A DNA stretch of 64,000 nt from Forficula auricularia. Its lineage: Eukaryota; Arthropoda; Insecta; Dermaptera; Forficulidae. Under the pieces are notes generated by a model. The model had not been told where the DNA came from, made no database searches, and was given only the letters and a program-made list of their open reading frames with translations. Made by a program: the position numbers and the translations under genes. This document shows positions 12,184-63,061 of this stretch, piece by piece. Each line of letters starts with the position of its first letter. The first letter of the stretch is position 1. Location of the stretch: assembly GCA_024734495.1 (NCBI GenBank), contig JALMQS010000826.1, forward strand, positions 62,001 through 126,000, read 5' to 3'.

Positions 12184-15100
12184 ATGAGAGGGCTGGGCGT
12201 AACACTGATAAGTCTCGGTTTGACATCAGCCGTCATTGGAAATGCATATTATCAGAAAAAACAATTTTACCCTTCGGTGGTTTATATCACGAAATCGAAT
12301 CCTAGCATGGCTGTAATAATCTAAAACTATATCTTAAAAAATAATAAATCAAATTCTATCATTAATTTTAATCTCTTTTAGGTTATATATATTCAAGCTT
12401 TTGTTATGGTAATATTAATTGGAAAATTAATGCGGAAAGTTTTCTTTGGCCAATTAAGAGCTGCAGAATTTGAAGTAAGAATTAAATTTGATTTTTATAA
12501 ATAATTCAAATATATAAGAAGTTATAATTATAATATTATTTAATGTAATCTATTTGGAAAAGTTATACTTTCATTTTCAGTCCAGCTTTGATAATTCCGA
12601 GGGGTGAACCGCGATTGGAATTAGGTGTACATCGTCTTTGGAATTCATTAGATAATCTATTGTCTTCTACTTGGAAGTGGAAGTAGGTGTACACGATTTT
12701 AGGTCGCGGTTCACCCCTCGGATAATTCTAAACCCAAGAGAAAAGCCTTTTTCTTCGAATTAATGCAATTTCATTTTTAGAGTTTTTTTGAATTGGGGAG
12801 AACAAATCAGCCGTTGATTTTGAAAGTGTGAGCCACAAGTCCATTTCCCCCAAAAAATTGAGTTAGCAATAAAAATATTGACAATTCTATATAAATTTTT
12901 ATTTTAAACAATTTCACCTGATTACTACCTTTAATAATATTTTCTAAACACAACATTACTTGGTTAATAGAATAATAAAAAAAAACAATATTTTGAAAGT
13001 AACTTAAGTCTACTTTGCAAAGTTTCAAATTGATTTTTAGTATAATTTTATTTTTAATAATACCTTGTGTTGCTTGGGAAAAATATATAATTTTTATATT
13101 TATGTACATTTAAAAGATGAGTAATTATAAGAGAAAATTAAGTGGATATCGATGAGGCAGTCCAAAAAAGGAGATAATTTACACTATCTTTTTATTCATA
13201 AAACCTGTGTAAATTATCTTCTTTTTTGTGGAATGCCTCATCGATATCCACTTAATTCACTTATCAGTCTTGTCTCCAAAAATTACTCCAATCTTATAAG
13301 AGAAAATATTTAACAAAATAGGAAATTAATAAAAAAAATCATATGCTATCTAATACAGTCGATAATTCGAAATCCAAGGGACTACAAAAAAAATTCGAAT
13401 TATCAAGATGAAAAAAAAATTCGAATTATTAAGAGTTTTTATTATATCTTTGAAAATATGTATGAGCTTACATAAATTTTATATATATCCTCAAGCGAGG
13501 GGTGAACCGCGACCTAATATCCTGTACACCTACTTCCATTTTCACTTTCATTTCCAAATAGAAGACAATAAATAGATGAAGGGGCATTATCTAATGAATT
13601 CCAAAATAATTCCACATAATTCCAAAGACGTGTACACCTAATTCCAATCGCGGTTCACCCCTCGGCCTCAAGTAAAAAAGTAAAAATAATGAAAACGAAA
13701 AAAAGAACAAAAAATTACATTGAAAAGTTTTTGTTTTGCCGAGAGTAGCAGAGTTGTTGATTCACAAAGAGAAACAAAGAGGTTGTCCTCTGCTTGATGC
13801 AAATAAACATACACACATATATATCGAGATGATATATCTGTATAACTGTATATATATACTATTTATTTGTTTGAGACTATAGTTTCGAAGACTTGGTCTT
13901 CATCATCAGTCTTTTTTAATTATAAATGTTTTTCATGGAGTCAATATCGTATGGATATTGAAAATTCGTCACTAGTAGTCAGCTTAGAACTCCTTCTAAG
14001 TTCTAAGCTGACCACTAGTGACGAAGAAATTTCATCCAAATATTGACTCCATGAAAAACATTTATAATTAAAAAAAGACTGATGATGAAGACCAAGTCTT
14101 CGAAACTACAGTATCAAACAAATAAATAATATATATACAGATATATCATCTCGATATATGTGTGTATGTTTATTTGCAGCAAGCAGAGGACAACCTCTTT
14201 GTTTCTCTTTGTGAAAAAACTACATACATTACGCGGAAAATGACGAGTAAACATTTCTAGGAAAAGTTCGAATTATAAAAAGGTGAAGTGACCTAGTTCG
14301 AATTATATCTCCCCCTCTTGTTACAAAAAGGATTGCGAGTTATCGAGCGTATCAAAAAATACACAGCATTTTTTCGATTTACCGAAGTTAACAGCTGAAG
14401 GGTTCGAATTATAGAGAGTCGACTGTACATATATATGTGCCCATAATTATGAAAGTGAACTAAATGAAAAAAATAGTTTTTTCATTTTTTATGTTCCATC
14501 TATTTAAAAATTACAATAATAAGATGTCAGTTTTGAAAATTCGCATAAAATTAAACCGTTAAGTGGATTTCTAGTTGTTTCATTATACAGAATTCGAATC
14601 TTGTTTATTTGATAAAACTTTAAATATCTCGAAACTAAGAATCAATGACTATGGTCTACAATTTCATAATTATGGGCACATATCAGCCAAAGTAGGGATG
14701 CACCGGGTCCCATAAAATTTCCAGAGTAAAACGTTTCAGCCTAATTGAATTTAGGGAACGCGGTGTTGGTTTATAGTGAAACATTATTAAAATTATATTA
14801 GGTTGGAGTTGTGGCGTTTCACAAGGAGAAAAAATTTAAATACAAAGATTTTTTTAAATTTACTCTATATTTCGAGCTCTTAACTCATCATCAAGAGAAC
14901 ATTGACTGAAATCTTTGTATTTAAATTTTTTTCTCCTTGTGAAACACCACCAACTCCGACCTAATATATTGTAGTTTCAGCCTAAGTTTATTGGGCTACA
15001 GAAATTTATAAATGGTTGTTAACATTAGTAAACATCATTATTATATCAATTTAAGTTGTTAAGTGTTGGTTTTTAACTTACAATTTTTTTTCTTGTTTGT

Positions 15101-18100
15101 TGATTTCTTGTAATTGATTTGTATTGATGTTTGGTTGACCTAGCCACCGAGGTCTTGTGCCTTTAAGCAGGTCGAATAATAAAGATTTATTTACTATTAT
15201 TATAATTATACATATATTGCGATAGACACATGGGATTGAACCTAGTTTGCTCAACAATAATAACTTTATGTAGTTTGCGTCTTGCTTGCGCCCAAGGTTC
15301 ATAGATGATGATGGTTTATACAAATTGTATTATATATATATATAAAAATAAATCATATGACTCTTATTAGAGGTCATTTTTAATCGCATTATCATTTATT
15401 TATATTCAAATGGACCAAATTAGGTTTAATTACTATACTTTCATTATTTCATTAAACTATAATATATATCTTCCTGTTTTTATATATCTCATTATTTACT
15501 TTAACTTATGTAGACATTTTTTTAATTTTTAATTTAATAAACCTCCAAAAAAGCATTTTTTAACCCAATCAAGAGAATAGATGTATAGATATTGGACAAC
15601 CCTATGCAATCTCTTTGAAAATTGACTGCTTTGTCTCTTTTTTTTGTTTGTTTTTTATGATAATGATGAGAGAAGGAGTTACACCAAAAGGTGCAACCCC
15701 TAAAGGCCTGGGTTGGCCCCTCCATCGTGAAAAGAAGAAAGAATTTTATGGGTTGGGCGGGGGTCGAAGGTATCTGTGGATACGTGTCTTAAATAGCTGA
15801 AGGTTATAAGTCGCGGGAAAGATTTTTTTTTTTTATAATGATACTGATACAAGAAGTTGCACCAAGAAGGTACAACCTCTGAAGTCCGTGGTGGACCCTT
15901 ATAACGTGAAGATAATAGTAGATTTAGTCATTGCGTAGCAGTCCAACGTATCTGTCCATGCTGGTCTTGAAAGATTGAAGGTTATAAGTAGCTGGAAAGA
16001 CGGTTGGGGGAAGAGAGTTCCAGTCTCTAGATGTCATAGGGATAAATGAATTGGCGAATGCGTTTGTTCGATTAGTATCTAGTTTAAGTGCGTAGGGGTG
16101 TTGAATTTTAGAAAATCGTGTATTTCGCGCAAATGAGATGGTGGCAGGGAGCGAGTTCCAGTCTCTGGAGGTCATAGGGATAAAAGAGTTGGCGAAAGCG
16201 CTTGTTCGACTTTTATCCAATTTTACAGCGAAGGGGTGCTGAGCGTTAGAAAACCACGTCTTTCTCGTAAAGAGGGCATTAGGGGGGATAATTGATTTCA
16301 GCTCGACTGAACAGACACCGTGATAGTATCTGTAGTACAGGGAAAGGGCAGAAACGGTTCTTCGGTGAGCCAGGGAGTCGAGTGAGTTGGTTAGAGCCGG
16401 GTCTCCTATTAGTTTAATTGCTCGCTTCTGAATTGCATCCAGTGTAGCAAGAGAATGCTTGGAGGCACCCCTCCACAGATGAGAGCCATATTCGAGAAAG
16501 GGACGAATTTGAGCCTTATACAGTATAATAAGTTGACTGGGAGTATAACAGCGTCTAGACCTAAATAGGAGACCTAGCTTGCGCGCTGCAGCTTTAGCAG
16601 TGGTTGAGATATTTTTATATATATAACATTTCAGCTTTAGATGTTTTACAGTAATTGTCAATTTAACCATGCATTATTTTCAAAGGAGATTGATTCTGAT
16701 TTTTATAAAAAAAAAAAATTATTTGAATGTTTTCTTCTTTTGTAGCATTTAATGGAGCGTTCCTGGTATGCTGTGACTGAGACATGTTTAGCTTTTACAG
16801 TTTTCCGGGATGATTTTAGTCCGAAATTTGTTGCACTATTCACGGTGTTGCTATTTTTGAAGTCTTTTCATTGGCTAGCTGAAGATCGAGTGGATTTTGT
16901 AAGTATATTTTTATTTTATTCAACAAATATAAATAATGTTCTCACAATGATAGCTATTGTGTAGGATGATCACTTTTTACATTGGTCTAGTGGACCTTTT
17001 TGCCCTGGCGGACAATTTTTAGGGGTTTTGGTTAGCGAGCCGCCATGCAGCTCCTAAGGTGACTCATTAGGCCTATACTGGCGTTGCAATCTCTTGCGCA
17101 GTCAAGACAAAGAAATGATTATATAATTTAAAGGAAAATATGAAAAGTAAAGAATATTCAAGATTTGACCTGTAAGGATATAAGGAGGTTCGACAGGACG
17201 TGCTCCAATCCAGGTTAACAAAATAACAATGGTAACCATAGTTTAAAAGAGACTTTGGTTCAAAGGGTAAAACTCAATCCCTTGGAGGAACCAAGAGTTT
17301 TCGTGGCGTCTCCTCTTTTTCTCTTCGTGAATAATTTGCCTGCGCTCATCGGCTTTAGACATAGCAAGCTGGATTTCCGTTCACCATTTCTGCCGATCCC
17401 CAGGTCTTGGGATCGATGCTTCCAGGGCCAAAGTCTCTGAACCAGACATCTTTGAATCTCAGGAGGGTCGGCCACGGGGACGAGTGCCAGTGGCTAGTTC
17501 GCCGTATAGCAGATCCTTGGGAATGCGCCCATCATGACCAAGCCACCTCAGCCGTCGTTGGGTCAGGAGGGCCTGAAAGGTCGGCATGTTAGCCGTATTT
17601 AAGACTTCAAAGTTTGTTTTGAAGGCATCCACTGTATCCCCGCTTTAGGCAGCGGATATGAAATGTATTTAGGCGTTTTTTGTGTCTCGAATACGTAGTC
17701 CATGTCTCTGCTCCGTAGATAGATAGATTTTAATTTGCTCTGAGAATGATATTCTCCTGGAACATAAAAGAGACAAATTTTATTACAAATTAATTTAGAA
17801 TTCCGCGGAGTAAACTCGCGAGCAAATCCACTCAACGGAATTTTTAACAAATTATAAGTAAATTTGTTTTTCTAGTATATTTATACAAATATAGAAAATT
17901 ATCAAATTAATTAAATTAATCTTAAGAAATTCAAAGAGAAATTCAAAGATGTTTTTATAAAGCGAAATTTTGAGAATACTTAGCGCTAAGTATTCTCAAA
18001 ATTTCGCTTTATAAAAACATCTTTGAATTTCTTAAGATTAATTTAATTAATTTAAATTTTATTACATTCAAAATCTGCTTTCGAAATTCAACCAAGAGAG

Positions 18101-24100: not shown

Positions 24101-27100
24101 GATATCTGTTAGTCTGTGCGTTGTCAAATAATAATATTCTATCATGCTAATGAATTGGTCGTGTCTTTACCATATTCCCGCAGAAGGGAAAGCAGGACCC
24201 CAATCCCATGCAAATGAACATTGCATTTTTCGTAACATTTGAACGAAGTTTTCGCCATGGTATGATGCAGAAATATTCGAAGGCGGGATAGGGTGGTCAG
24301 AAGAATCAAATCTTCGTTTTGCTTCTGCTGCTGGAGCAATAAAACGTATCTCTAATTGATTATCATAAGCCTAGAAGAGATTATCAAATATAGTAATTAG
24401 AAGACGATAAATAAGGAAAGTTTTCAGTTCAAAAATTTTATAGTTTAAAATGAAGATATAGTTATAATTAATCATAATTAATGAACCCAATTTCCGGGAG
24501 CAGTTTGTGTTTAGTGTAAGTAGTTTAGTAGTTTTTCAAAATGGTGAACATTTTCTCATTTCTCAAAAACGACTTTAATTAGAAAATTTAAATGAAGTGG
24601 TCTACAAAAAAGCTTTTTATCATATTATATTTTTACTTTACCACACAGGGTATGGTCAAGTATTGTAATTGTGCATGAAAAAAGTGGTTTTTTTCCTTCT
24701 TTTTTTCGAAATATCTCAAAAACGGCTGAAACTATTTTGATTAAAAAAATTGAGCTAAACCATGGTATTTCGCTTCACAAAAAAGCTCTAATAAGTAAAC
24801 ATCAAAAAAATTATATTTTTCGAGATAATAATTGTTTTGTCAAAATGTCTGTTAGTCTGTGAGTTACCAAATTTTTATGGACGAGCTAGCTCAAAAACTA
24901 GTGTGAATATCAAAACCAAATTTCACACGTAGTTTTGGTGGATTGAGATTAAGAGCTGATTAGATTTTGGTGCATATCGAACCAAAATTAAGGGGGGGAG
25001 AGGAAGGGTTAAAATTTAAAATTATATTATTTTCAAACTAAAAAAACAAGAAAAATGAAATATACTATAAAATGAACCTATAATAACATAATTTTTTTTC
25101 TGGCGCCAAAATTAGGGGGGGGGGGGGGTTAAAAAATAAAAATCTAGGCCATTTGAGTAAACTCAACCAAATCTGGTATACGTAATCAGTGGGCCCCCAG
25201 ACACTAAAAATGCAAAAACTAAACGCCCAAAATGGGAGGGGGTCAAAAAATTTAAATCTAGGCCTTTGTACCAAACTCAACCAGAAGTGTATGGTAAAGT
25301 CAAGTAGATGGCCACATCAGAACGTGTCAATTTATTTAAGTAACTAAAAATGTTTTGAATGTTTTAGGTTCTTCATCAACCAGCGGAACTGCAAGTGGCG
25401 CAATGCCCGGAATTCCTCCGCCTTTTCCCTTTGGCAATATGCCCCTATTTTGTCCTCCATTTGCCCCCTTTTTGCCTTTCACCATGCCGGCTCCTCTACC
25501 TCCTGCTGACTATACTGGCCTGACAGACGAGGATCTTCGTCGAATGGAAACTGATACCCGAGAAGCTCTTGAAGCACGTCTTAGCTGTTTGCGCAACGTT
25601 CGTCTTTTGCTGGACGCAGCCTCAACGCTGATGCAGCAGCATGCAGCTGCCGCCGCTGCTGCAGCTGCAGCTGCATCCGTTTCTACTTCTGCTTCAGCAA
25701 CTCAACCAAATACTTCCACCGCTGCAGATAGGTAAAATATTAAATAACGATTTTTCAGTACATCTTGATTTTAAATGATATCTCAATAAGAAGTCTTTTA
25801 ATAACAAATTTAGACAAAATTATTTAATTACATAGAACCTCGTTTATCCGGACTAATTGTGACCAAAGACAAACCGGATAATCGAAAATCTGGATATATG
25901 GGAAATAAAAACAAAACAATTCCTCAAATAAACGAATTTGAATTTATTACGATAAAAAAGAACATATTTATATCAAAATCACATAGAATTGTTTAAACAA
26001 AATACATACTTTAAAAAAAATTAACTAACTTTTTAATTTTATTTATTTTCTTAGAAAGACGGACTGGTAAGCGAAATAAGTAGGTTATAATGAAAAGCAG
26101 TCCAAATTATTTAAATTTTTTATTCAAATACCGACGTTTCGGAGACCTTTTCTCTCCTTCTTCAGAATAATGAATAGTTATTGATGGGTGAGTATAACTC
26201 GGCTCCCATTTGTCTCTCTTTTCAGTGATAACAACAATATTACAATACTTTTCACCATTATATCACAAGTGTATTAGTATACTCACCCATCAATAACTAT
26301 TCATTACCCTGAAGAAGGAGAGAAAAGGTCTCCGAAACGTCGGTATTTGAATAAAATATTTTGACTTTTCTAATACTAAAATTTTAGATAAAGAACAAAA
26401 TTTAGGAAAAAAATTAATTTTATAAATGATCGAAATTTTATGCAACAAAAATTAAATTAACAAAAGGTCAGATATGACTTTTTTATGGCCTTCGGGAACT
26501 ATAGCCCATTGGCCATTCGTGTTCGTCTATGTGTGTGTAAATTAGTGTAGGAATCATATTATAGCCGGTAAAATATTTGCAGTGAGTCAGGCTTGTGAAC
26601 CCGCACTAGCTTGATTAGTATTTTTAAGATTTATCTGGAATTTTTAGAGAGAAATTCATTTTTGTAAATAACTATACTCTCTACAAATATTTGACCGGCT
26701 ATAATCTGATCCCTTCAGGGAAAGGGAATGGGAAACCACCCCTGTGAAAAATTTCCCCTGGAAAATTACAATGGAGAAGATCTTTCCATAGTAATAGCCG
26801 ACGCTCAGAAGTGAGTATGGCGCTTGAAGAAGTACAAAATTTGGTTTAGATCGGTCAAAGGGTCTAGCAAACTTCTCAAAAACTTCCTTTTATATATGTA
26901 TAAATAGATAGATAGATAGTTATATTTAATAATACATAAGGAGGTAATATCTAATAATTTTTTTTTTTTTTTTAGTATAAATCAACAAGCAGAATCTTCT
27001 GCTCCAGTGAATACTAGCACAACAAATAACGAAAATACCGTTGAGCCAGATGCTTCTACAACAGTGTGAGTAATATTTATGTTAAATTCTATATTGTTGA

Positions 27101-28597
27101 TATTTAATAATTGCACATTGAAAATGTAGAAATACAGGGTGGGGCATAAAGATCTATCTACCACATTTTGAAGAGGTATAAAAGATGAAAAAAATTTAAC
27201 TAGAAAAAAACTGAATATATTTTTGAAAAGAACATCAAATAATTTTTTTTTAAATGTGTTTTAAACATTATCAGACAAAAAAAAGGGGGAGGGGGGCTAA
27301 AAGGGTAAAAAATGAAAATTCTTGCCCTTTTGACCAAACTCAACCAAATTTTGCCTACATATTCTGTGGACCCCCAGAAGGCTAGAAATTCAAAAAACTA
27401 ACCAAATTTTGTATACATATTCTGTGGACCCCAAGAGAGCTAGAAATGCAAAAACTAACCACCCAAAATGGGGGGGAGGGTAAAAAATGAAAATTCTAGC
27501 CCTTTTGACCAAACTCAATAAAATTTTATATACATATTCTGTGGACCCCCAGAATGCTAGAAATGCAAAAACTAACAAAATTTTGTATACATATTCTGTG
27601 GACCCCGAGAAGACTTGAAATGCAAAAACTAACCACCCAAAATGGGGGGAAGGGTAAAAAATTAAAATTCTAGCCCTTTTGACCAAACTCAACCAAATTT
27701 TGTATACATATTCTGTAGATCCCGAGGAGACTTGCAAAAAATAACCACCCAAAATGGGGGGGGGGGGGTAAAAAAATGAAAATTCTAGCCCTTTTGACCA
27801 AACTCAACCAAATTTAAAAACATATTCTGTGGACCCCCAAAAGGCTAGAAATGCAAAAAATAACCAAATTTTGTATACATAGTTTGGTCGAAAGAGCTAG
27901 TTTTAATTTTGGGTGGTTAGTTTTTGCATTTCTAGCCTTCTGGGGGTCCACAGCATATGTATACAAAATTTAGTTGAGTTTAATCGAAAGTGCTAGAATT
28001 TTCATTTTGCCCCCCCTTTTTTTTTTTTTGCCTTATTATGTTTTAAAACACATTACAAAAAAAAATATTTTATATTAATTAACAGGAATAGCAGCGAATT
28101 GGACAAAAATTAAAAACAGAGTTTTTATTGAATGGGCCAGACGTTGACAAAGAGTGATAGAATGAGCCACTGAGGAAGTCGAAATTAATCGACGAAACGT
28201 CTGGCCCATTCAATAAAAACTCTGTTTTTAATTTTTGTCCAATTCCCTGCTATTCCTGTTAATTAATGCTTATTATGGATACGAGTGATTTACCGTTATA
28301 TTTTATATTCTTTTCAAAAATATATTCAGTTTTTTTCTAGTTGAATTTTTTCATTTTTTTATTCCTCTTCAAAATGAGTAGATCTTTATGCCCCACCCTG
28401 AATAAAGACTATCAAAAATAATTATCTCGCCCAACTAAAAAAATTTATTGAATAAGTAATATTTGTGAAAATTATCTTCTAGGGAAGAGGCGGCTTCAAC
28501 GAATTCCCCAGTAGATCAAAATCAAGAAGAATTACGACGACGGAGATTGCAGAGGTTTGAGAGTAATAATACAAACGAAACCCCGGTACAGGACTAG
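12184..28597 (+). CDS. SYVN1: SYVN1/HRD1 ER E3 ubiquitin ligase, 11 coding exons
   Basis: This is a complete spliced gene. Coding exons are 12184-12312, 12382-12474, 16746-16898, 19274-19322, 20875-21105, 21166-21265, 22112-22458, 23462-23644, 25368-25731, 26976-27065 and 28483-28597. Every intron is GT-AG, phases match throughout, and the product is 617 aa. The protein is the membrane RING ligase of ER-associated degradation, which passes ubiquitin to misfolded proteins during retrotranslocation (Drosophila name sip3). Exons 1-6 encode the multispanning domain (starting [12 protein letters not shown], then [21 protein letters not shown]-type and [10 protein letters not shown] blocks). Exon 7 encodes the RING-H2: C290, C293, C308, H310, H313, C316, C327, C330. 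Exons 8-10 encode a Pro/Gln/Ala-rich cytosolic tail with a poly-Ala run in exon 9. The C-terminus keeps the conserved ELRRRRLQ motif. All key residues are intact, and introns 2, 6, 9 and 10 contain transposons. Confidence 0.97.
12598..12720. repeat. CGAGGGG MITE copy 1 (SYVN1 intron 2)
   Basis: Terminal inverted repeats are CGAGGGGTGAACCGCGA and its complement. The exact 8-bp target duplication GATAATTC flanks it (12590-12597 and 12721-12728). It is a non-coding foldback of subfamily I, with a short interior containing GGAATTCATTAGATAAT. Confidence 0.93.
13137..13257. repeat. Small foldback MITE (SYVN1 intron 2)
   Basis: Arms of about 45 bp beginning TTAAGTGGATATCGATGAGGC are inverted around a short spacer. 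The superfamily is not identified. Confidence 0.75.
13496..13664. repeat. CGAGGGG MITE copy 2
   Basis: It has the same termini as the copy at 12598. The target duplication is TCCTCAAG on the left and GCCTCAAG on the right (7 of 8 identical). Its interior carries the subfamily I block GACAATAAATAGATGAAG. Confidence 0.92.
13875..13909 (-). ncRNA. Hammerhead ribozyme (left arm, minus)
   Basis: On the minus strand the core reads CTGATGA, one unpaired T, stem II GAAGAC/GTCTTC with loop CAA, GAAAC, loop TATA, then GTC. A15.1-U16.1 and C15.2-G16.2 make a two-base-pair stem III, and C17 is the predicted cleavage site. The orientation is antisense to SYVN1. Confidence 0.75.
14079..14113 (+). ncRNA. 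Hammerhead ribozyme (right arm, plus; SYVN1 intron 2)
   Basis: The core is CTGATGA, T, stem II GAAGAC-CAA-GTCTTC, GAAAC, loop TACA, then GTA. H17 is therefore A, which hammerheads allow. It lies in the sense orientation within the SYVN1 pre-mRNA. The complementary left arm could sequester it by forming a long hairpin. Confidence 0.75.
14434..14682. repeat. MITE with TGTGCCCATAATTATGAAAG ends, copy 2
   Basis: Same terminal inverted repeats and interior as the copy at 4108-4372, but inverted. TA flanks both ends. Confidence 0.82.
14796..14966. repeat. Foldback MITE with hammerhead-like centre
   Basis: Arms of about 60 bp begin ATATTAGGTTGGAGTT and GTTTCACAAGGAGAAAA. On the minus strand the centre reads CTTGATGAT, GAGTT-AAG-AGCTC, GAAATATAG, which resembles a hammerhead with one extra U and an altered stem III. 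It is probably decayed. Confidence 0.65.
15645..15923 (-). repeat. Jockey-type LINE 3' ends, two tandem partial copies
   Basis: Two stretches (about 15645-15800 and 15830-15923) contain the same 3' end: a protein C-terminus followed by the GGTTGCACCTT / TGGTGTAAC block and a T-rich or ATAATGAT tail. A third copy lies at 61137-61345. The duplication suggests repeated 5'-truncated insertion or partial duplication. Confidence 0.6.
15924..16670 (-). pseudogene. Jockey-type LINE, C-terminal ORF2 fragment (248 aa)
   Basis: The open frame covers the region after the RT catalytic core. It shows [63 protein letters not shown] blocks and DWNSLP. The final part ([19 protein letters not shown] and [12 protein letters not shown]) occurs twice in a row, an in-frame duplication of about 45 residues. 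No catalytic YADD box is present, so it is a 5'-truncated remnant in SYVN1 intron 2. Confidence 0.85.
17240..17740 (-). pseudogene. Non-LTR RT C-terminal fragment (SYVN1 intron 3)
   Basis: The minus strand, in two or more frames, reads [61 protein letters not shown] and LRFKDVW. This is a well-known conserved 3' segment of an insect non-LTR retrotransposon. Frameshifts and the absence of the palm show that it is a dead 3' fragment. Confidence 0.8.
17903..18057. repeat. Foldback MITE
   Basis: A near-perfect palindrome of about 70-bp arms centred on TTAGCGCTAA at about 17984. It is AT-rich and non-coding. Confidence 0.75.
18198..18890 (-). pseudogene. Non-LTR LINE C-terminal fragment (SYVN1 intron 3)
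   Basis: Two minus-strand frames (18870-18673 and 18638-18198) read [29 protein letters not shown], then [49 protein letters not shown] and AFKAKCFD. These are typical of the region following the RT domain of Jockey/CR1-like elements. A stop separates the parts. The order is preserved, so it is one 5'-truncated insertion. Confidence 0.78.
18945..19170 (-). pseudogene. Second LINE fragment abutting the first
   Basis: The minus strand reads [17 protein letters not shown] and [16 protein letters not shown] across a frameshift, the block just downstream of the YADD box in an RTE-like RT. It belongs to a different family from the fragment at 18198-18890, so the junction is a nested or rearranged pair. 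Confidence 0.65.
19330..20107. other. SYVN1 intron 4, nothing recognised
   Basis: AT-rich intron sequence without recognisable repeats or frames. Confidence 0.4.
20108..20690. repeat. GC-rich Helitron-like fragment (SYVN1 intron 4)
   Basis: It begins with CTAGCTGCAAGG and the hairpin GGCCCGCCTTCGGTGGGCC, resembling Helitron 3' ends. A C-rich segment with several CCCCCTGGACCC repeats follows, then tandem GACAAATTCCCTTTATTAG-type units that end in TAGTATGTGAT. It stands out from the AT-rich surroundings. The proline-rich frames across it are a composition effect. Confidence 0.4.
21294..22003. mobile_element. TTAA-type MITE family 1, copy 1 (SYVN1 intron 6)
   Basis: It starts GGTAGTTGTTTCGCGAC and ends GTGAAACAACTACC. 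The interior is closely similar to the elements at 29305-30024 and 55384-56076. The flanks here are TGAA and TTGA rather than TTAA, one substitution each. It fills most of the 846-bp intron 6. There is no transposase. Confidence 0.82.
22540..22830 (+). repeat. tRNA-derived SINE A, full length (SYVN1 intron 7)
   Basis: A pol III A box (TGGGTCAGTGGTTAGAG) and B box (GGTTCGAGACA) are about 40 bp apart. They are followed by a conserved body that ends GGAGAGGAGCC...CAGGGAGA and by an AGAAGAAGAAG tail. The B box has mutated from GGTTCGANNCC by one base. A 3' fragment of the same family is at 30661-30725. Confidence 0.82.
22827..23120 (-). pseudogene. Mariner-like transposase, DNA-binding fragment
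   Basis: The minus strand reads [24 protein letters not shown] and continues [11 protein letters not shown], a helix-turn-helix characteristic of mariner-family transposases. The rest of this strand is lost. The C-terminal end of such a transposase lies only about 160 bp away but on the opposite strand. Confidence 0.7.
23275..23370 (+). pseudogene. Mariner-like transposase, C-terminal fragment, opposite strand
   Basis: The plus strand reads [20 protein letters not shown] followed by WDNIDYDQ, the standard C-terminus of mariner-type transposases. Facing away from the DNA-binding fragment, it shows an inversion with internal deletion, or two separate insertions. Confidence 0.7.
23896..24130. 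repeat. Dispersed repeat R1, partial copy (SYVN1 intron 8)
   Basis: It starts TTTACCATACAGGGTATG and runs through the conserved TTCGAAATATCTCAAAAACGG block shared with 24636-25330 and 60127-60690. Confidence 0.65.
24636..25330 (+). repeat. Dispersed repeat R1, long copy (SYVN1 intron 8)
   Basis: The left end is TTTACCACACAGGGTATGG and the right end has TATGGTAAAGTCAAGTAGATG and CACATCAGAACGTGTCAA. The interior includes TTCGAAATATCTCAAAAACGG and two G-tracts (25107-25118 and one near 25235). A reverse-orientation copy lies at 60127-60690. No transposase is seen; the class is unknown. Confidence 0.7.
25832..26095. repeat. Tigger-like terminal fragment (SYVN1 intron 9)
   Basis: ATAGAACCTCGTTTATCCGG followed by CCGGATAATCGAAAATC resembles pogo/Tigger-type ends. 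The opposite terminus was not identified. Confidence 0.35.
26125..26175 (-). ncRNA. Hammerhead ribozyme, family B (left arm)
   Basis: On the minus strand: CTGAAGA, one unpaired A, stem II GGAGA/TCTCC closing GAAAAGG, then GAAACGTC. The ACGU after GAA is self-complementary, so a stable stem III would need dimerisation, as proposed for minimal retroelement hammerheads. Stem I pairs across CGGTAT with partial complementarity. Confidence 0.72.
26301..26350 (+). ncRNA. Hammerhead ribozyme, family B (right arm, sense in SYVN1)
   Basis: Same core as the left-arm copy: CTGAAGA, A, GGAGA/TCTCC, GAAACGTC. ACC before the core pairs with GGT after C17 to start stem I. It is in sense orientation in SYVN1 intron 9. 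Confidence 0.75.
26550..26710. repeat. Foldback MITE (SYVN1 intron 9)
   Basis: The ends ATCATATTATAGCCGGT and AAATATTTG are repeated in inverted orientation at the right (CAAATATTTGACCGGCTATAA). It is short and non-coding. Confidence 0.6.
27300..27990. repeat. Tandem G-tract repeat
   Basis: About five imperfect units contain CCCAAAATGGGGGG, AAATTCTAGCCCTTTTGACC, AAACTCAACCAAATTTTG and ATATTCTGTGGACCCC. The last unit (27885-27990) is inverted. The 120-aa minus-strand frame across it merely reads the repetition (TEYVYKIW recurring). Confidence 0.8.
28075..28268. mobile_element. Hammerhead foldback, family B2, nested
   Basis: Inverted arms begin TTAATTAACAGGAATAGCAG and share TAAAAACAGAGTTTTTATTG. 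The right arm carries a hammerhead; the left arm keeps only CCAGACGTTGAC, a deleted antisense remnant. It lies within the CAGGGTGGGG foldback. Confidence 0.75.
28161..28210 (+). ncRNA. Hammerhead ribozyme, family B2 (sense in SYVN1 intron 10)
   Basis: AATGAGCCA, CTGAGGA, unpaired A, stem II GTCGA/TCGAC around AATTAA, GAAACGTC, TGGCCCATT. The outer flanks form a nine-position stem I with one mismatch, and all core positions fit (N7 is G). This is the best-formed hammerhead in the window. Confidence 0.85.
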
Positions 28598-30510: not shown

Positions 30511-30660
30511 ATTTATTATTTCAAGTTAGAAATATATAAACTCAGATATTATTTTCACTTAATATTTGACAAAAATCATCTGCATTCGATTCGCGATTGA
30601 ATAAAATACAGGAAACTTATGATTAAATATTATAATAAGTAGAGTTTGGATCGATATGCA

Positions 30661-45399: not shown

Positions 45400-46430
45400 A
45401 TAATTTCTTTTATCAAACATTATAAAATAAAGAGAAATCAATGAGTGTGTCCTCTGCTTGATGCAAATAAAAATATAGGTACATACTAGTATATAACGAA
45501 TATAAATATGTATACCTATATATAATTAATTTGTTAGAGATTATAGTTTCAAAGATTTGACCTTCATCATTAGACTCTAAAAAAATAGTAAATCTGTCAT
45601 TTCTCATGAGTTCAAATACCCAACATTCGAATTCATTTGCTATGTCGCCAACTAGATCTTAGAAGAAAACAATATTTACCTACACCTAACCGGGTATTTG
45701 AACCCATGAGAAACAACAGATAGAATATTTTTAATTAAAAAAACTGGTGATGAAGGTCATAACTTCGAAACTATAGTCTTCAACAAACAAATTATATACA
45801 TATACACATATTTATATTCGTTAAATATATGGGGCATTCCATGCCAAATCGACCATTTTCGATTTGGATGAAACTTTTTTATCTTTTTCTACCCTATCGA
45901 AAACATTTTTCAGAATTTCCAGGATTGCGAAAAAATAAGAAAAATATTTTTCAATTAAAAAAAAAAAAATAGAAAGAAAAGTCCAACCAACATGGGGTTT
46001 GCGGCATTCTACGCAGAAAATAAAAAAAAAATTTCAAAAATGTCAAACTTCAAAAAATTGAAAAATGTTATTGAATATGAAGTTGAATATTTTTTTTGGA
46101 TTTTTTTCTCAAAAGCACGTTTAAAAACGAAAAAACACCATTTTTTTTTTTTTAAATAACTTTTTTTCGGTTGAGTAGAAAAATTTGAAAAAATTCTGAA
46201 AAATGTTTTCGATAGGGTAGAAAAAGATAAAGATTCAGCCAAATCGAAAGGGTTCGGGATCAAAAGTGGTCGATTTGGCAGGGAATACCCTATATATATA
46301 TATATATATACACGTATATATATATACGTATATATAATCATTTGCATCTAGCAAATGACAACCTCTTTCTCTTTATGAATCAACAACTCTGCTACTTACG
46401 GCAAAACAAAATCTTTTCAATAAATTATAT
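45400..46430. mobile_element. Hammerhead foldback subfamily 2, decayed, with nested foldback
   Basis: Outer arms carry TGTCCTCTGCTTGATGCAAA at the left and its mirror at about 46345; the right terminus ends CTGCTACTTACGGCAAAACA. The left-arm motif (minus, about 45545-45580) has CTAATGA. The right-arm motif (plus, 45744-45778) has CTGGTGA, GAAG/CTTC, GAAAC, TATA, GTC. Both have a core substitution. A separate foldback (45831-46290) lies between the right ribozyme and the right end. Confidence 0.72.
45831..46290. repeat. Foldback MITE, GGGGCATTCC ends
   Basis: GGGGCATTCCATGCCAAATC and CCCTATCGAAAACATTTTTC are inverted at the right. The 112-aa minus frame over it is an artefact of A/T-runs. Confidence 0.75.
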
Positions 46431-48132: not shown

Positions 48133-48764
48133 TAAGATAACGCGTTGATTGGCGAAACAAGGAAAAAGAAGGAAATTTTAAGAAAAAATAACTGGAAAGT
48201 TAATTTAACACAAAAAATATATCCTCTAGCCCCCTAACCCAAGTAGGAAGAATTGTAGCAGCTGAAGTGGAGACTACAGTACTACAGATAGTTGTTATCC
48301 ACTCTTTGGTCAGCAAACCCAACTTTTAGGTCTCAAGAGTTGAAATTGGGATTGAAATTAATACACCAGCCCAAGCTATGTCATACTATTTACATATCCA
48401 TTAGTTTAAGATTCTAAGACAATCTTAAACAAAAAACTAACATTTATTATGAAAAATAAATTCATAATATACGTATTTTGAGTTTTATCAATAAAAGTAC
48501 AAAAATGTTCTATTAAACTATCTGTCTTCTAATTATTTAATGTTTAATTCTTCTAAGTGTACTTTTATTTAATAATATATTTATATTTTTAAATATGAAA
48601 CAAGAACTTCTATAATAATATATTATATATTAGTACCTTAGATAGAAAACTAGCAAGTTATAAAAATTTGAAAAATGAAGTTTTTATGTTATGTAAATAA
48701 ACGAATGGAGTGCTTAAAAGGCAATGCTGCTAATAAGATAGGTAAGTCAGTATTAGTATTAAAT
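48133..48764. other. AT-rich, nothing recognised
   Basis: No coding frame or repeat end recognised. Confidence 0.4.
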
Positions 48765-48823
48765 TATAGAGAGAAACAAAGAGGCTGTCCTCTGCCTGAT
48801 GCAAATAAACATATACACATATA

Positions 48824-48860
<37 letters not shown>

Positions 48861-49562
48861 CTTATTTGTTTGAGACTATAGTTTCGAAGGCCTGGCCTCC
48901 ATCATCATTTAATTATAATAATATTTTTCATGGGATCAGTATCAGTTTATATATTGAAAATTTGTTCCTTCTTTCTCAGCTTGAGAGCCAGGTAGAATTA
49001 AATAAAGTAAAAACATTTTTTGGAACACATCCTTCTTAAATATATTTATCCTTTCCTAACAAAGAACGGCCGAACAATGGGGGGGGGGGCTTTTTCTACT
49101 TTCCTTTATCTAAAATTGTTTGTTTTGACAGTAAATTTTAAGTAGATTGCTATTTGTCAATTCAAATTTTCTATTTAAACACAGGTCAGAATTCCTGTTA
49201 TATGACTAGAATTTCTAAAGATTCAATGGCGCTTATTAATTTTGGATCTCTTTCTGCTTTAATTAATCTAATTCCTGTACCTTCTGTTTTTTTAAAACTA
49301 TCTGGCTCACAAGCTGAGAAAGAAGGAAAAATTTTCAATATCCAAACTGATACTGATCCCATAAAAAATAATATTTATAATTAAAAAGACATGATGAGGG
49401 CCAAGCCTTCGAAACTATAGTCTCAAACAAATAAATAAAATATATATATATTTTATATATATGTTTGTATGTTTATTTGCATCAAGCAGAGGACAACCTC
49501 TTTGTTCTCTCTATGAATCAACAACTCTGCTACTCTCGGCAAAATAAAAACTTTTCAATTAG
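48765..49562. mobile_element. Hammerhead foldback subfamily 2, another copy
   Basis: The left end begins AGAGAAACAAAGAGG and GTCCTCTGCCTGATGC; the right ends CTGCTACTCTCGGCAAAATA. Inner arms share TTCTCAGCTTGAGAGCCAGG. Hammerhead cores are partly lost: the left (minus) lacks the initial CU, while the right (about 49389-49424) reads ATGATGAGGGCC-AAGCCTTCGAAACTATAGTC. The centre (about 49005-49270) is non-inverted, and its 76-aa frame has no known domain. Confidence 0.7.
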
Positions 49563-50538: not shown

Positions 50539-50745
50539 AAGTAACGGCAGCAGTAGTTGACCATTTCGACATAAAACTTTAATTAATAAGGATCCAGATG
50601 GAAGGATTCCCTTAAAAAAAAATCTATGGACACTAGACAACAGGACCTGTCCATATATTTTTCAAGGGAATCCTTCCATTTGGATCATTATTAATTAAAG
50701 TTTTATGTCGAAATGGTCAACTACTGGTGCACGGTCCCGTTACCT
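50539..50745. repeat. Foldback MITE nested in a hammerhead foldback end
   Basis: Ends AAGTAACGG and CCGTTACCTT, with TA on both sides. Arms share TTGACCATTTCGACATAAAA. It interrupts the GCCGAGAGTA|GCAGAATTT terminus of the element that continues from 50746. Confidence 0.78.
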
Positions 50746-51053
50746 TAGCAGAATTTTTTTATAAATTGAAGGAGATAATAAAAGAGTGTGTCTTCTGCTG
50801 GAATTATAAATTTTTAATTTATTTCTAACGAGACTATATAGTCCCGAGAGCTTTGCCCTCTTCATAAGTCTATTACAATTGATACACAGGAATTAATGTA
50901 TGAATGGTAAGTGAGATTTACATGTGGTCTGGGCAAATTATGATTCACCATTTATACTTGAAAATGAAACAAGTATAAATGGTGAATCATAGTTTGCCCA
51001 GACCACATGCAAATCTCACTTACCATTCATAATTCCCGTGAATCAATTGTAAT

Positions 51054-51310
51054 CAGGCTCGGATCCAGACCTCTGATTGGGGGGGGGGGGGGGGCGGTCG
51101 CCGGTATATAAGATCTACTTTTGATCTCGGAAGTGTGTCGCGATCGAATTGTCCAAGCGGGGGGGGGGGGCGTCAGATATTCCTCCCCCTACATAGAACT
51201 TTATTTTCTTCAATTTTAAAATTTAATGTCATAAAAAAAAAAGAATTAAATAAACATATGAAAAATGTTGATCTGCAATGCTTTGGGGGGGGGGGGGGGG
51301 GCGGTCGTAG
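51054..51310. mobile_element. hAT-like insertion with G-tracts
   Basis: It begins CAGGCTCGGATCCAGACC and is flanked by an exact 8-bp duplication ATTGTAAT (51046-51053 and 51311-51318). Sister elements have only one ATTGTAAT at this site. It contains three G-tracts of 10-17 bases, which will be error-prone in sequencing. Confidence 0.8.
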
Positions 51311-51321
51311 ATTGTAATAGA

Positions 51322-51356
51322 CTGATGAAGAGGGCAAAGCTCTCGAAACTATAGTC
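51322..51356 (+). ncRNA. Hammerhead ribozyme, subfamily 1
   Basis: CTGATGA, unpaired A, stem II GAGGGC/GCTCTC with loop AAA (one G-U pair), GAAAC, loop TATA, GTC. All core bases present. Confidence 0.78.
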
Positions 51357-51435
51357 TCGTTAGAAATAAATTAAAAATTTATAATTCCATCAGAAGACAC
51401 ACTCTTTTATTGTCTTTTTCAATATAAAATTCTAA

Positions 51436-52235: not shown

Positions 52236-52664
52236 TTAAATGTAATTATTTAGATAAATTAAAGGAAAATTTTTTTCAAAAATTAATGATATCTGACCAA
52301 AAACATAAATGTGAAAAAGAGGCCAATTTCGGTGCAAAGGGCTTCGCCGACAAAATAGTTGAGATCTAAACGGGTACCAAGTTCCATAGCAGTTGCTTAA
52401 ATCATAGCTATAATATAATAGCGAACGTTCTTCAATTGATTTAAAAGAAAATTTGTTACGTTCATTGATATTAAATTTATAACTTGGCAAATTTTATATC
52501 CAACTAAATTATTTGTATTAATAGTATTAAATAGAACAAATAGCAAAGCTAAATTTTAAGCTTGTATTAAATAAATATCATCACGTTAAACGTAAGTTAT
52601 TGACTATTATAGCTTGCCAAGTTATAAATTTAATATTGAAGGAGACAATAAAAGAGTGTGTCTT

Positions 52665-52798
52665 TTTTTTTTTTTTTTGGCTTTTCGGCCTTTCTAGCCT
52701 TAAGCCATTTACGATACTAATTATTTTATTTAAATTTGTCTCTACCTCGGGGGTCAGATTTTTAGCCGGATGCCTCGAGTCGGATTCGAACTCGGGTC
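52665..52798 (-). repeat. SINE B, copy 2, with 13-bp target duplication
   Basis: Minus strand: CGAGTTCGAATCCGACTCGA (B-box-like), body, GGCTAGAAAGGCCGAAAAGC, then an A-tail (plus-strand T-run). AAGAGTGTGTCTT flanks it exactly at 52652-52664 and 52799-52811. The A box region is missing. Confidence 0.88.
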
Positions 52799-52918
52799 AA
52801 GAGTGTGTCTTCTACTGGAATTATAAATTTTATTTATTTATAACGAGACTAACCTAACCACATGAAAGATTTTAACCTTTCATTCATAAATTAATTCCTG
52901 TGAATCCATTGTAATAGA

Positions 52919-52953
52919 CTGATGAAGAGGGCAAAGCCCTCGAAACTATAGTC
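52919..52953 (+). ncRNA. Hammerhead ribozyme, subfamily 1
   Basis: CTGATGA, A, GAGGGC-AAA-GCCCTC, GAAAC, TATA, GTC. AGA before the core pairs with TC after C17 to start stem I. An internal loop separates this from the outer UAA/UUA pairs. Confidence 0.8.
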
Positions 52954-53386
52954 TCGTTATAAATAAATAAAATTTACAATTCCAGCAGAAGACACACTCT
53001 TTTATTGTCTCCTTCAATATATAAAAATTCTGCTTCTCTCGGCAAAAACTTTCAATTTAATATAAATTTAATATCAAAGAACGTAACAAATTTTCTTTTA
53101 AATCATTTGAAGAAAGTTGTTCATTCCTATAGCTATGATTTAAGCAACTGCTATGGAACCTGGTACCCGTTTAGATTTCAACCCTTTTGTCGGCGAAGCC
53201 GTTTGAACCAAACTTATCCCCTTTTTCACATTTATGTTTTTGGACAGATATTTATTAAAATAATAACCGCCTATTTCTTAGGAGAAAATTACACCTCTAA
53301 AAATAATAAGTAGTAATTAGTAATAATTTGTCCAAAAAGGAATAACAGGTAAAAAAATTAATTATATTATATTATAAAAAAGGATA

Positions 53387-56300: not shown

Positions 56301-59014
56301 ATTGAACAAATCTGATAAAATATCAATCAACACATTTATTTATTTATTTACTCGTATATTGTAATGTAGATCTGTTACTCAATTGTATAAATATTTGAGA
56401 TATTTGATGTGTCATTTTGTTTTTAGACTGAAAATATGGTGATGAGTTATCGCCGAAACATGTATCATGATTTTTAATTATTAAAAGAAAGACATTTTCA
56501 ACCAACATTGGAAAGAGTTTTTATTTTACATCGAGGGATCTACAACTACATATACAATAACTCATGAAGTGGGACAATTTCCATATAAAATTGGATTTCG
56601 AAGTTGCTGTATCTGAGCAAATGATCGATATGGACAAGTGTTACTAGAAATTCCAATTAAGTTAATGAAGAAGGGGTAAAAATAATTTTTTGGTAGAAAA
56701 CCACTAAGCCTAAAATGTGGGATTTTTCATAGAAAGCAAAGAACAGACGGAGGTTAGAGTATTTTCCACATTATAAGATATTGAAAACAAAATTGATTGT
56801 CACAGACACGAACACAAATTTTTTGATTAGGGGGGGGGGCAAAAATTTTATAAAGGAATCTATAATAGTTTTATTTTCAGTTTCAATTTTACTTTATAGA
56901 ACCATATGTAAGTAGATAAAGAGCGGCATGTGGCTCGCGAGCAGTGCAAATGTATTATTTACAGTACATTTTTGAAGGAGACAATAAAAGAGTAGTCTTC
57001 TGCTGGAATTATAAATTTTATTTATTTATAACGAGACTATAAATTAATTCCTGTGAATCCATTGTAATAGACTGATGAAGAGGGCAAAGCCCTCGAAACT
57101 ATAGTCTCGTTATAAATAAATAAAATTTATAATTCCAGCAGAAGACACACTCTTTTATTGTCTCCTTTAATATATAAAAATTCTGCTACTCTCGGCACAA
57201 AAACTTTCAATTTAGTAGATTTCTCCTTGAAAAGTACATTAACATTAAAATAATTTAGTTTCTAGTACATTCCATAAAATATCTTAAAGGTAGGATATTT
57301 ATGATACATTAAAGAAAAACATTTATGTGAGAATGTCCAAATTATATTGCAAGTGAGAGTGATTTCAGCCCTATTGAATTACATGACTTTCGCTTGAAAA
57401 AGTTAAATTTTTATATTGAATTATGCACAGAAATAAGAAACCGATTTCCTTTCGATAATGAACTGTTTATTTAATCAATTGACTTGGCTAGATCCGTTAA
57501 ATATATACTCTGAAAAAAGAGCTGTTTCGATCGTTCCATTGATCAAAAAATTTCTTAATATGGAGTTAATGAGTCTGATTTCGAAAATATTAACTCGGAG
57601 TGAAGGTTAATATTAAATAATAAAAATGATAGATTTAATAACAAGATGAGTTTTGAGGCATTAATTATTTTTTAACAAATTACAGAACATTTTACTAAAA
57701 TGAATAGTACATTCAAATAAAATAAGCTCGTGAGCCACAGTTTGCCGATTATACAGGCTAACGATGAAAAAACTTTTTCAATAATTTTAACTAATTCCTG
57801 TCTTATTTGGTGTGCTGTTTCCGAAAATAATAATAAAAAAGTCGTATCACCCTCCAATTTCTCATATTTTGGAACATAATGGAAATGGAAATACTTATTT
57901 ATGCTTTATTGCCTGTTGCTCATTCAGTCGATATGAAGGAAACTTACAAAAATCTTAATATAATTTTACAGAAAATTAACTATACAGCTCATGATTGGAT
58001 GCTCTGTCGAGATTTAAAAGTTGACTCCATGCTCCTTGGTCAACAAATGGGATTTACAAAGTTTTCATGTTTTATATATGAGTGGGACAGCAGAGCAAGG
58101 GTATAAAAAACAATGGCCCGTAAGAAAAATTACTATTCGCATTTTAGTAATTTAATATTATTGTAATTAAAATTCTAATTTAATAAAAAAAAACTATGAT
58201 TTTTAATTTTTATATATCAAATTTTCCCTATTTTTTAAAATATATAATCGATGTCTTTATGTGAGAAAATTGTGGGTGATAAAAAAAACTGATACCAAAT
58301 ACGGTTTCGGAACCCAAAAATACATAAGATTAAGGCAAATTAGTTTAAAAAATTTTACAAACATTTTTTTTGTTGGCCTGTGTTATTGCGTGATACAGCG
58401 GGACTAGAAGATGTAGATGAGTAGAATATTGATTTATTATCTGTTCAGTTTTTAGGAACACATCCTGAGCGCTAAAACGAAGTCTTAATGAATTAAATAA
58501 AATTTTATACTTATGGGATTTTAAATAATAAATAATTTTATAATATAGCTAGATGAATTCGGAAAGGTTGAAGAAGAAAAAGGCTTTTCCCATGAATTTC
58601 GAATTATCGAGGTTTAACGGTAATAATAAATTAATAAAATAAAGTACAATAGTAAATATACCTCACGGCTTAGTTTAGTAAATGGTCTCAGTTCAGCCAC
58701 AACTAGGCCGATTATTTCACCCTCCAAAACAGCAGCAAGGGCATAAAATCTAGGATCTGATGTTATATCCTCATACCATGAATGTGGATAATCAATAGGA
58801 AACCAATCTTGACAGAGAGCACGAACCTAGTAAGTTCATAAAAATTAATAAAGTAAATTTTAATATTTTAAATAAAAATAATAAGATTGTAATAATTTAA
58901 AATATAAAATAAAAACATTTCCAGATGATCTAAAAATACCTCTTCCAAATCAGATGGACAAAGAAAACGGAGTTGTAAATTAGTAAGACCACAAAGAGGT
59001 ACTGGTTTCGTCAT
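53387..59014 (-). CDS. NAA60: NAA60 N-alpha-acetyltransferase (NatF), 4 coding exons
   Basis: Minus-strand exons are 59014-58940 (start codon; the exon continues upstream to about 59045), 58826-58662, 55172-54943 and 53492-53387. All junctions are GT-AG with matching phases (0, 0, 2), giving 191 aa. The family acetylates N-termini of transmembrane proteins facing the cytosol, at the Golgi. It shows WFPIDYPHSWYEDITSD, AAVLEGEIIGLVVAE, YILSLGVSKPHRRNGIASLL (acetyl-CoA motif RRNGIA, residues 108-113), FLHVLTTN, RFYEHRHF, LPYYYSIKG, KDGFTYVLYINGGHPPW. Y97 and H139 correspond to the catalytic pair reported for human NAA60. Exon 3 is set by the acceptor ending TTGAG before GACCGAGG. The product stops at HPPWGL, whereas relatives continue with membrane-binding helices. 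No GT donor is seen there, so this is real truncation, allele loss or assembly error. The 3.5-kb second intron is full of transposons. Confidence 0.93.
53510..54254. other. NAA60 intron 3, 3' part
   Basis: AT-rich. GACCTAACTGCTAAAG and GGTCTAACTCCACTACT may be a short inverted pair (53745-53885). Nothing else recognised. Confidence 0.35.
54255..54440. repeat. Foldback D fragment, empty TTAA site
   Basis: It matches the left arm and following sequence of the element at 29160-30510, without the 720-bp insertion: GAGTCTTAACTCTGGAC, with a single TTAA at 54398-54401. It lies in NAA60 intron 3. Confidence 0.85.
54530..54930. mobile_element. Pogo-like terminal fragment, split by a SINE
   Basis: TTCGCTTATCCGCGGTCGCC, CAGATTATCGAGAGTTTA and, beyond the SINE, TTTACTGTATT. 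Read on minus, CAGTAAACTCTCGATAATCTGG resembles pogo/Tigger ends. The other end was not located. Confidence 0.45.
54584..54898 (-). repeat. tRNA-derived SINE D, 12-bp target duplication (NAA60 intron 3)
   Basis: Minus strand: GTTGTGGTTAGCATGG (A box) and CGGGTTCGATTCCCGG (perfect B box) about 35 bp apart. The body then runs to an A/T-rich tail at 54584-54610. ATCGAGAGTTTA flanks it (54572-54583 and 54899-54910). In NAA60 it lies in sense orientation. Confidence 0.9.
55220..55320. repeat. Pogo/Tigger-like end fragment
   Basis: TACAGTCGAACCTCTTTAAA with a second CCTCTAAGTCAAAAGTC resembles Tigger-type terminal repeats. No second end is seen. Confidence 0.4.
55384..56076. mobile_element. TTAA-type MITE family 1, copy 3 (NAA60 intron 2)
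   Basis: Starts GGTAGTTGTTTCGCGAT, ends GTGAAACAACTACC, flanked by TTAA at 55380-55383 and 56077-56080. Its 87-aa frame (55817-56080) is also present in copy 1 only in broken form, so it is not a gene. Confidence 0.88.
56120..56560 (+). repeat. Foldback-like repeat with a decayed hammerhead
   Basis: At 56428-56470: CTGAAAA, stem II GGTGAT/ATCGCC, GAAAC, AT, GTA. The core G8 is A and two bases are inserted before stem II. CATATAATGGAAA-like ends (ATGGAAATTAATTATCCCAC at 56170 and GTGGGACAATTTCCATAT at 56568) are inverted, so it is another foldback with the same polarity. Confidence 0.55.
56975..57215. mobile_element. Hammerhead foldback subfamily 1 (NAA60 intron 2)
   Basis: Left TTGAAGGAGACAATAAAAGA, right its mirror then CTGCTACTCTCGGCACAAAA. 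The left arm is deleted right after ACGAGACTATA, removing its ribozyme. Confidence 0.8.
57072..57106 (+). ncRNA. Hammerhead ribozyme, subfamily 1
   Basis: CTGATGA, A, GAGGGC-AAA-GCCCTC, GAAAC, TATA, GTC, identical to the 52919 copy. It is antisense to NAA60. Confidence 0.8.
57330..57620 (+). pseudogene. hAT-like transposase fragment (NAA60 intron 2)
   Basis: Broken plus frames read EIRNRFPFDNELF, then LDPLNIYSEKRAVSIVPLIK and KFLNMELM. The xRFPF-xN...LDP pattern followed by a helix is typical of insect hAT-like frames just before the C-terminal dimerisation region. It has stops and shifts. Confidence 0.5.
57879..58120 (+). pseudogene. Transposon-derived frame (KINYTAHDWMLCRDLKV)
   Basis: The 75-aa frame MEMEILIYALL...HDWMLCRDLKVDSMLLGQ..GFTKFSCFIYEWDSRARV ends in a stop. 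I recognise the DLKV..LLG.Q.G.TK..CF...WDSRA pattern as one that recurs in arthropod transposon-like proteins of uncertain superfamily. It is only a fragment, antisense to NAA60. Confidence 0.5.
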
Positions 59015-60125: not shown

Positions 60126-60126
60126 T

Positions 60127-62980: not shown

Positions 62981-62999
62981 TTTAGCGTCACGCCTAATT

Positions 63000-63061
63000 T
63001 ACTTCTCCCCAACCTTACTGATGATGAAGGTCAAACCTTTGAAACTATAGTCGCTAAGAAA

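Follow-up and report, generated by a model that had tools for sequence, protein, structure and literature searches.

Hammerhead-bearing foldbacks in the genome of Forficula auricularia as probable head-to-head insertions of Penelope-like element termini

Introduction

The 64,000-nucleotide stretch of the Forficula auricularia genome considered here (contig JALMQS010000826.1 of assembly GCA_024734495.1, positions 62,001 to 126,000 of the forward strand; hereafter the window) contains a series of short palindromic elements, or foldbacks, that carry hammerhead ribozyme cores. An initial annotation, made from the sequence alone, had pointed out that the sense ribozyme lies in the 3' arm of every palindrome whichever strand is read, and had raised the possibility of a self-limiting RNA in which the complementary arm disables the ribozyme. 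What, then, are these elements, and why is the polarity of the ribozyme constant? The evidence set out below suggests that the foldbacks of two families, A and B, are probably head-to-head copies of the pseudo-long terminal repeats (pLTRs) of Penelope-like elements (PLEs) resident in the same genome, and that they likely arise when both strands of the target are cut and one cDNA is made on each strand from differing pLTR ends.

Hammerhead cores and their polarity

Eight of the nine cores listed in the initial annotation were recovered in place from the window using a strict descriptor of the type I hammerhead (CTGANGA, a helix II of at least 4 bp, GAAA, helix III and the start of helix I), which gave two matches in total on 30 Markov-resampled windows. 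The ninth, at 63018-63052(+), was recovered with a looser scan only. The cores can be taken as real. The looser scan also added two pairs of degenerate cores absent from the earlier list, 45539-45573(-) with 45744-45778(+) and 48874-48908(-) with ~49388-49422(+), and a copy with a shortened helix II at ~1076-1101(-), along with several apparent chance matches.

Two types of core are present in the window: GAAAC-UAUA-GUC in families A and B, and loopless GAAACGUC in family C (at 26.1 and 26.3 kb) and family D (at 28.2 kb). The conserved type I core is found together with helices II and III. When 32 distinct genome copies were aligned, two-sided changes were seen at four of the six pairs of helix II, a count equalled by 46 of 500 shuffles, and the covariation score of this helix was 0.244 against 0.148 in shuffled alignments, a value reached by none of the 500. 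Helix III is invariant by design, 30 of the 32 rows having been picked by a pattern that fixes it. The best Rfam match, RF00163 at 57069-57113, reaches 12.4 bits where the gathering score is 34 and is thus sub-threshold; nothing hammerhead-like was found in Rfam for the family D core region (28150-28230), and a search of the whole window at E<=1 returned no hammerhead but chiefly sub-threshold microRNA models, many of them lying on foldbacks. Because the Rfam match is sub-threshold, the ribozyme label rests on the core, the covariation and the PLE setting described below, and self-cleavage is predicted from the cores.

In all nine window foldbacks where a core can be recognised, the sense core or its remnant was seen, by eye, to lie in the 3' arm. 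To place these in a wider context, we searched the 1.06-Gb assembly, in which the window corresponds to G000:C734:62001-126000. A first pattern, CTGATGAN{6,30}CGAAACTATAGTC, gave 13,720 + 13,970 = 27,690 matches genome-wide and none with a reversed control; a second, for the minimal core (CTGANGAN{6,30}CGAAACGTC), gave 15,442 + 15,242 = 30,684 matches against 1 + 6 for its control. Matches of a core pattern in viral and GTDB contigs numbered two and two, apparently by chance. The order of neighbouring sites was counted among the first 100 listed for each pattern, on contigs C1-C4. Pattern 1 neighbours no more than 1 kb apart were (-,+) in 21 cases, (+,-) in none and (+,+) in one; the corresponding figures for pattern 2 were 19, 1 and 3, the lone (+,-) pair seeming to fall between two adjacent elements and the three (+,+) pairs belonging to one tandem array. 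Pattern 1 neighbours more than 10 kb apart showed all four orders: (+,+) 15, (+,-) 21, (-,+) 8 and (-,-) 16. Among these sampled sites, antisense-then-sense order at close range thus occurs 40 times and the converse once. Random orientation across the genome, named beforehand as the outcome that would overturn the claim of constant polarity, is not what is seen, and in this sample that claim survives. Separately, four minimal hammerhead cores were observed at G000:C4:1022704-1023098 in ~120-bp direct repeats, resembling a retrozyme array.

Foldbacks share their ends with Penelope-like elements

A search of the genome for the GIY-YIG domain gave 3423 candidates, 150 of which were scored. From these 150 matches we chose 15 PLE loci for close examination, mostly for their long or paired frames, and in all 15 a family A core adjoins the frame. 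The family A PLE frame, of 858 codons, carries both RVT_1 and GIY-YIG. One of the 15 loci (L043) is a tandem PLE unit with a period of 2909 bp and the core inside the pLTR; its frame opens INNSATLGKTKTFQ just after the pLTR, and this opening is encoded by a short segment that we call the tail. The tail comprises 14 codons of the PLE frame and is what the window foldbacks show at one end only, for example at 13720-13761 and 49517-49558. Tails of families A and B and of a further family, E, are similar, and the family A foldback at 13719..14223 shares 93% identity with the pLTR belonging to the 858-codon PLE. Relatives of the PLE frame, 110 proteins by similarity, occur in insects and other animals. 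In a tally of 30 of the 150 GIY-YIG loci, 15 had a family A core or a decayed form of it, two a family B core, ten a third core (..GCGAAACGTTG) and three none; the two with a family B core are L028 and L039, where the core sits behind a frame recognised by its GIY-YIG match.

The window itself holds decayed PLE pieces. The C-terminal end of a family A frame (residues ~806-855) lies at 49128..49284(-), in the centre of the foldback at 48758..49561, and a decayed C-terminal fragment from the GIY-YIG side of a PLE frame, with two internal stops, lies at 26360..26491(+), where it abuts the family C foldback at 26 kb; its best match is a PLE protein at 55% identity. These pieces, with the 150 scored matches in the genome, contradict the earlier statement that no Penelope reverse transcriptase or GIY-YIG frame is visible. 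Nor can the foldbacks be called unrelated to one another, as had been supposed, given that A and B cores adjoin PLE frames and the tails of A, B and E are similar. We therefore consider it probable that families A and B are head-to-head pLTR copies of PLEs; family E, by its similar tail, and family C, by the asymmetry of its tail, are likely of the same kind. At one further locus (L052:3612-5531(+)) the tail frame stays open into adjacent sequence (INNSATLGKTKTFQIFFRRMDKFLSG...), giving 640 codons altogether.

One tail per insertion

The asymmetry of the tail was scored in 38 pLTR foldbacks: 20 with both cores intact (L058-L077, drawn from the 21 pattern 1 (-,+) pairs), eight single-core loci, six window copies and four of family C. 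The single-core loci come from 57 listed sites, of which 12 were taken (L078-L089) and the eight with both ends in reach were kept (L084-L086 and L088 being left out). Exactly one tail was found in all 38 (A 13, B 18, E 3, C 4), on the left in 18 and on the right in 20, and the same was true of eight of eight frame-bearing copies. On rechecking, both arms were seen to retain the pLTR end in all of these 46 copies but one, the family C foldback at 26 kb, which has lost one end (45 of 46). Six other PLE loci were read as well: one tail is present in L051 and two in L047, L049 is broken at one end, and no second arm was found in L045, L050 or L057. Overall, 46 of 47 scorable two-armed copies have exactly one tail. 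Apparent direct repeats of 10-11 bp were noted by eye at L050, which has a tail, and at L057, which has none.

Measured from the predicted cleavage site, the two ends of family A insertions fall near +104 (+101 to +108) and near +150 (+144 to +154). Close to the predicted ends, 30 of the 40 copies scored have direct repeats of at least 9 bp, and in 22 of the 30 the repeat is 12 or 13 bp long; this scoring omits family C and two interrupted copies. Repeats of at least 9 bp were found in 2.9% of 1560 mismatched pairs used as a control. In the window, the foldback at 48758..49561 has the repeat ATTAGTATTAAATTA near its ends.

The inner ends of the two arms are unequal within a copy and variable among copies. 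L048, for example, keeps residues 39-858 in one arm and 588-858 in the other, and L054 keeps 42-858 and 808-858. In L046, at the other extreme, both arms are PLE copies of nearly full length (residues 17-858 and 16-858), joined head to head, and a direct repeat of 13 bp is present. In a small sample chosen for intact cores, no inner arm end that could be placed coincides with the cleavage site, and this sample thus gives no sign of self-cut RNA as the template.

Differences between arms of the same insertion

Although the two arms of an insertion are generally similar, as discussed below, they are not always the same. In L052, L054 and L055 the arms differ at two or three sites at which both alleles are present in other copies. 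Clusters of private changes also occur. The + arm of L056 has ten private changes, all T>C, against none of one in its - arm; the - arm of L054 has five of five A>G, against one of two in its + arm; and in the third, partial unit of L043 all seven are A>G. Across the 22 sites in these clusters, the 5' neighbour of the changed A, read on its own strand, is never G. The available part of PMC5625713 names Penelope in lizard as massively RNA-edited and describes depletion of G at the 5' neighbour. The selection of these clusters was post hoc: they are the longest runs of a single type of change among the matches, with L053 added, and the overall excess of A>G was set aside as the sense strand is rich in A (1307 A, 760 T). 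The clusters look like ADAR editing of an RNA or hybrid before insertion.

A model of two-sided target-primed reverse transcription

How might insertions of this form be made? As the simplest account we propose that the PLE enzyme probably cuts both strands of the target and primes one cDNA on each, one starting at the tail end and the other at the shorter end of the pLTR. Each arm would then be a separate target-primed cDNA, extended toward the 5' end of its RNA and stopping at a point of its own, and the two would be joined head to head at the centre. If both arms start at the 3' end of the pLTR, the 3' arm must hold the sense hammerhead whichever strand is read. Several features of the model have a biochemical precedent: the purified Poseidon protein acts in vitro on both strands of the target, cutting and extending each, starts inside the RNA at two sites, which bound the tail, and does not require the hammerhead for insertion (PMC11167929).

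The tails, direct repeats, inner ends and edit-like clusters fit two target-primed reverse transcriptions better than snap-back self-priming of a single cDNA. One may go further and suppose that insertion is two-sided by design, with one cDNA per target strand, obligatory starts on the RNA 43-47 nt apart, and separate RNAs, some of which would have passed ADAR as double-stranded RNA, so that thousands of palindromes would be frozen products recording an asymmetry of the enzyme. To this stronger version we give about an even chance. The palindromic arrangement itself is likely a by-product.

A number of observations weigh against two-sided priming or against the generality of the single tail. 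Arms are more alike within an insertion than when re-paired between insertions (family A, n=10, 0.068 against 0.105; family B, n=10, 0.098 against 0.124), some window arms in this comparison having been trimmed out of register by 3 or 10 nt, a shift absorbed in the alignment. Arms of the same insertion concur at most of the segregating sites inspected, those of L046 are identical over 2,905 nt, and one of the five clustered changes of L054 is common to both arms. Such agreement is also what a single template predicts; on the model proposed here it would mean that the two RNAs are usually of the same or similar source, and arm similarity alone is indecisive as to the identity of the template. 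L047 has two tails, and L050 and L057 look one-armed. In ten of the 40 scored copies no direct repeat reaches 9 bp, and among the repeats of the others some are AT-rich runs. Both family D copies, the one at 28 kb in the window and L091, have arms that end alike and do not show the single tail, and no intact PLE was found beside a family C or D core among the few copies of these families examined. The foldback sample was drawn from the first contigs listed and picked for at least one intact core. Finally, start sites in vitro were not seen to differ between the strands (PMC11167929), which gives no reason for a strict alternation of starts.

Alternative explanations

The rival that survives best is snap-back self-priming, in which the 3' end of a single target-primed pLTR cDNA folds back, in many cases where there is a small palindrome, and the cDNA then serves as its own template, yielding a head-to-head palindrome. 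It accounts readily for the greater likeness of arms within insertions; the heads of several family A copies fall near -85 to -93, at a short inner palindrome of the pLTR; and the available part of PMC3846280 proposes that rotifer PLEs self-prime on an antisense template. It predicts equal outer ends, however, whereas one tail is seen in nearly every scorable copy, and a copied-back cDNA would share all of its changes between arms, which is hard to square with clusters confined to one arm in L056 and mainly to one in L054, or with the arms of L052, L054 and L055 differing at sites polymorphic elsewhere. We regard snap-back as unlikely, while taking it more seriously than the explanations that follow.

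A whole foldback might instead be transcribed and reverse transcribed as a unit from the tail, as in a retrozyme, with tail and arms inherited together. This would explain the single tail per copy, and the L056 edits are oriented as expected if the antisense arm of a foldback RNA had been edited; those of L054 have the opposite orientation. The centre, moreover, differs in the eight frame-bearing copies and in most mapped family A foldbacks and so seems to be newly made each time. We consider this route improbable, and whole-foldback RNA was rejected as the usual template.

Less probable again is the self-limiting RNA put forward in the initial annotation, in the form of a switch under selection that turns the ribozyme off through the antisense arm and so accounts for the polarity. 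One part of it stands. In predicted folds of the foldbacks at 13.7 kb (family A), 26 kb (C) and 50-51 kb (B), the sense core is buried in the opposite arm with a mean pairing probability of 0.90-1.00. In those at 52 kb and 57 kb (both B) and 28 kb (D), the antisense remnant misses the core, which is left free (pairing probability 0-0.14), so that burial fails in three of the six elements folded. Several window copies have decayed cores, and no switch is needed to explain the polarity, which already follows from both arms starting at the 3' end of the pLTR. Nothing found here supports regulation as a role of the palindrome, although no test was aimed at selection for masking. Transcripts of a palindrome would form long double-stranded RNA.

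Terminal inverted repeat (TIR) DNA transposons, akin to miniature inverted-repeat transposable elements (MITEs), that had acquired hammerheads would offer long inverted repeats, short direct repeats near the ends and, in family D, arms that end alike, but this is barely credible and was rejected for A and B, whose ends are asymmetric, whose tail is PLE coding sequence and whose ends are also borne by frames with reverse transcriptase and GIY-YIG domains; in A, B, C and E alike the ends are not symmetric, the tail lying in one arm.

Comparison with known elements

The inverted arrangement, which the initial annotation had considered unusual, is already in print for PLEs. The available part of PMC3846280 describes head-to-head inverted pLTRs in rotifers, with palindromic junctions, an optional tail on one pLTR and direct repeats of 8-10 bp. 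The elements described here resemble rotifer Penelope as portrayed there and Anolis Poseidon (PMC11167929) in having a single frame with reverse transcriptase and GIY-YIG domains, tandem or head-to-head pLTRs, a tail on one inverted pLTR and direct repeats at insertions, and they resemble Poseidon in having a hammerhead near the junction of pLTR and frame (PMC11167929). They differ in that the family A core ends ~104 bp before the open frame (the start codon being undefined) and has a 2-bp helix III and UAUA, that core matches far exceed GIY-YIG candidates (27,690 against 3,423), and that tails per copy have been counted.

Minimal type I hammerheads of PLEs were reportedly the subject of work by Cervera and de la Pena in 2014 and by Lunse et al. 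in 2017. Like these ribozymes, as presented in the available part of PMC7761336, those of families C and D and of the PLEs with the third core have a loopless GAAACGTC or GAAACGTT core. Families A, B and E differ in their palindromic UAUA loop, which brings them nearer to the animal retrozymes of PMC7229834, so far as the accessible portion of that paper describes them. With these metazoan non-LTR retrozymes they have in common a type I core with a weak helix III, but retrozymes are non-coding direct tandem repeats and the foldbacks are inverted and have PLE ends; retrozyme was accordingly rejected as a class for the foldbacks.

Head-to-head polarity is thus a known property of PLEs, and what is new here is its regularity, one tail per two-armed copy. 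Neither a count of tails per palindrome nor a derivation of the palindrome from two-sided priming was found in the literature searched, which excluded most subscription papers, including the two original PLE hammerhead papers.

Elements of the window

The foldbacks of the window can be summarised from left to right. A family B pLTR foldback occupies 976..1193, with its tail in the left arm at ~976-1009, the antisense core with shortened helix II at ~1076-1101(-) and a sense arm that starts inside the core. The family A pLTR foldback at 13719..14223 has cores at 13875-13909(-) and 14079-14113(+) and the tail in its left arm. The family C foldback (26049..26361) has loopless minimal cores at 26133-26165(-) and 26309-26341(+), a tail in the left arm at 26049-26078 and a right arm without its outer end, and is followed by the family D foldback (28074..28267), whose loopless minimal core is at 28170-28201(+). 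An A-like foldback with the first pair of degenerate cores lies at 45419..45831, outside the tail scoring, and a solo 3' piece of an A-like pLTR, tail included, at 46292..46424(+). The family A foldback at 48758..49561, which has the second pair of degenerate cores, carries its tail in the right arm. Three family B foldbacks complete the series. That at 50746..51433 has its core at 51322-51356(+) and an antisense remnant at ~50832-50869(-), and its left tail is interrupted by another foldback. That at 52627..53062 has its core at 52919-52953(+), its tail at 53026-53059 and a left arm ending ~4 nt beyond the cleavage site, and that at 56972..57217 has the equivalent features at 57072-57106(+), 57179-57214 and ~6 nt. 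A single A-like pLTR arm outside any palindrome lies at 63017..63172(+) and carries the core at 63018-63052(+).

Further long inverted repeats, all without a hammerhead core in the scans, lie at 29165-30632, 37030-37695, 50547-50730 and 61535-62959. A RING-finger exon of a host gene (PF13639) is found at 22095-22466(+); we take it to be HRD1/synoviolin-like.

Significance

The route by which PLEs integrate, and the origin of their head-to-head copies, are debated: self-priming is proposed in the available part of PMC3846280, and the later steps of integration are unvalidated (PMC11167929). The F. auricularia genome offers a very large sample in which the one-tail rule, the 12-13-bp repeats and the arm-specific edits make two-sided priming and snap-back directly testable against one another, and hammerhead foldbacks of a single polarity require no new regulatory device.

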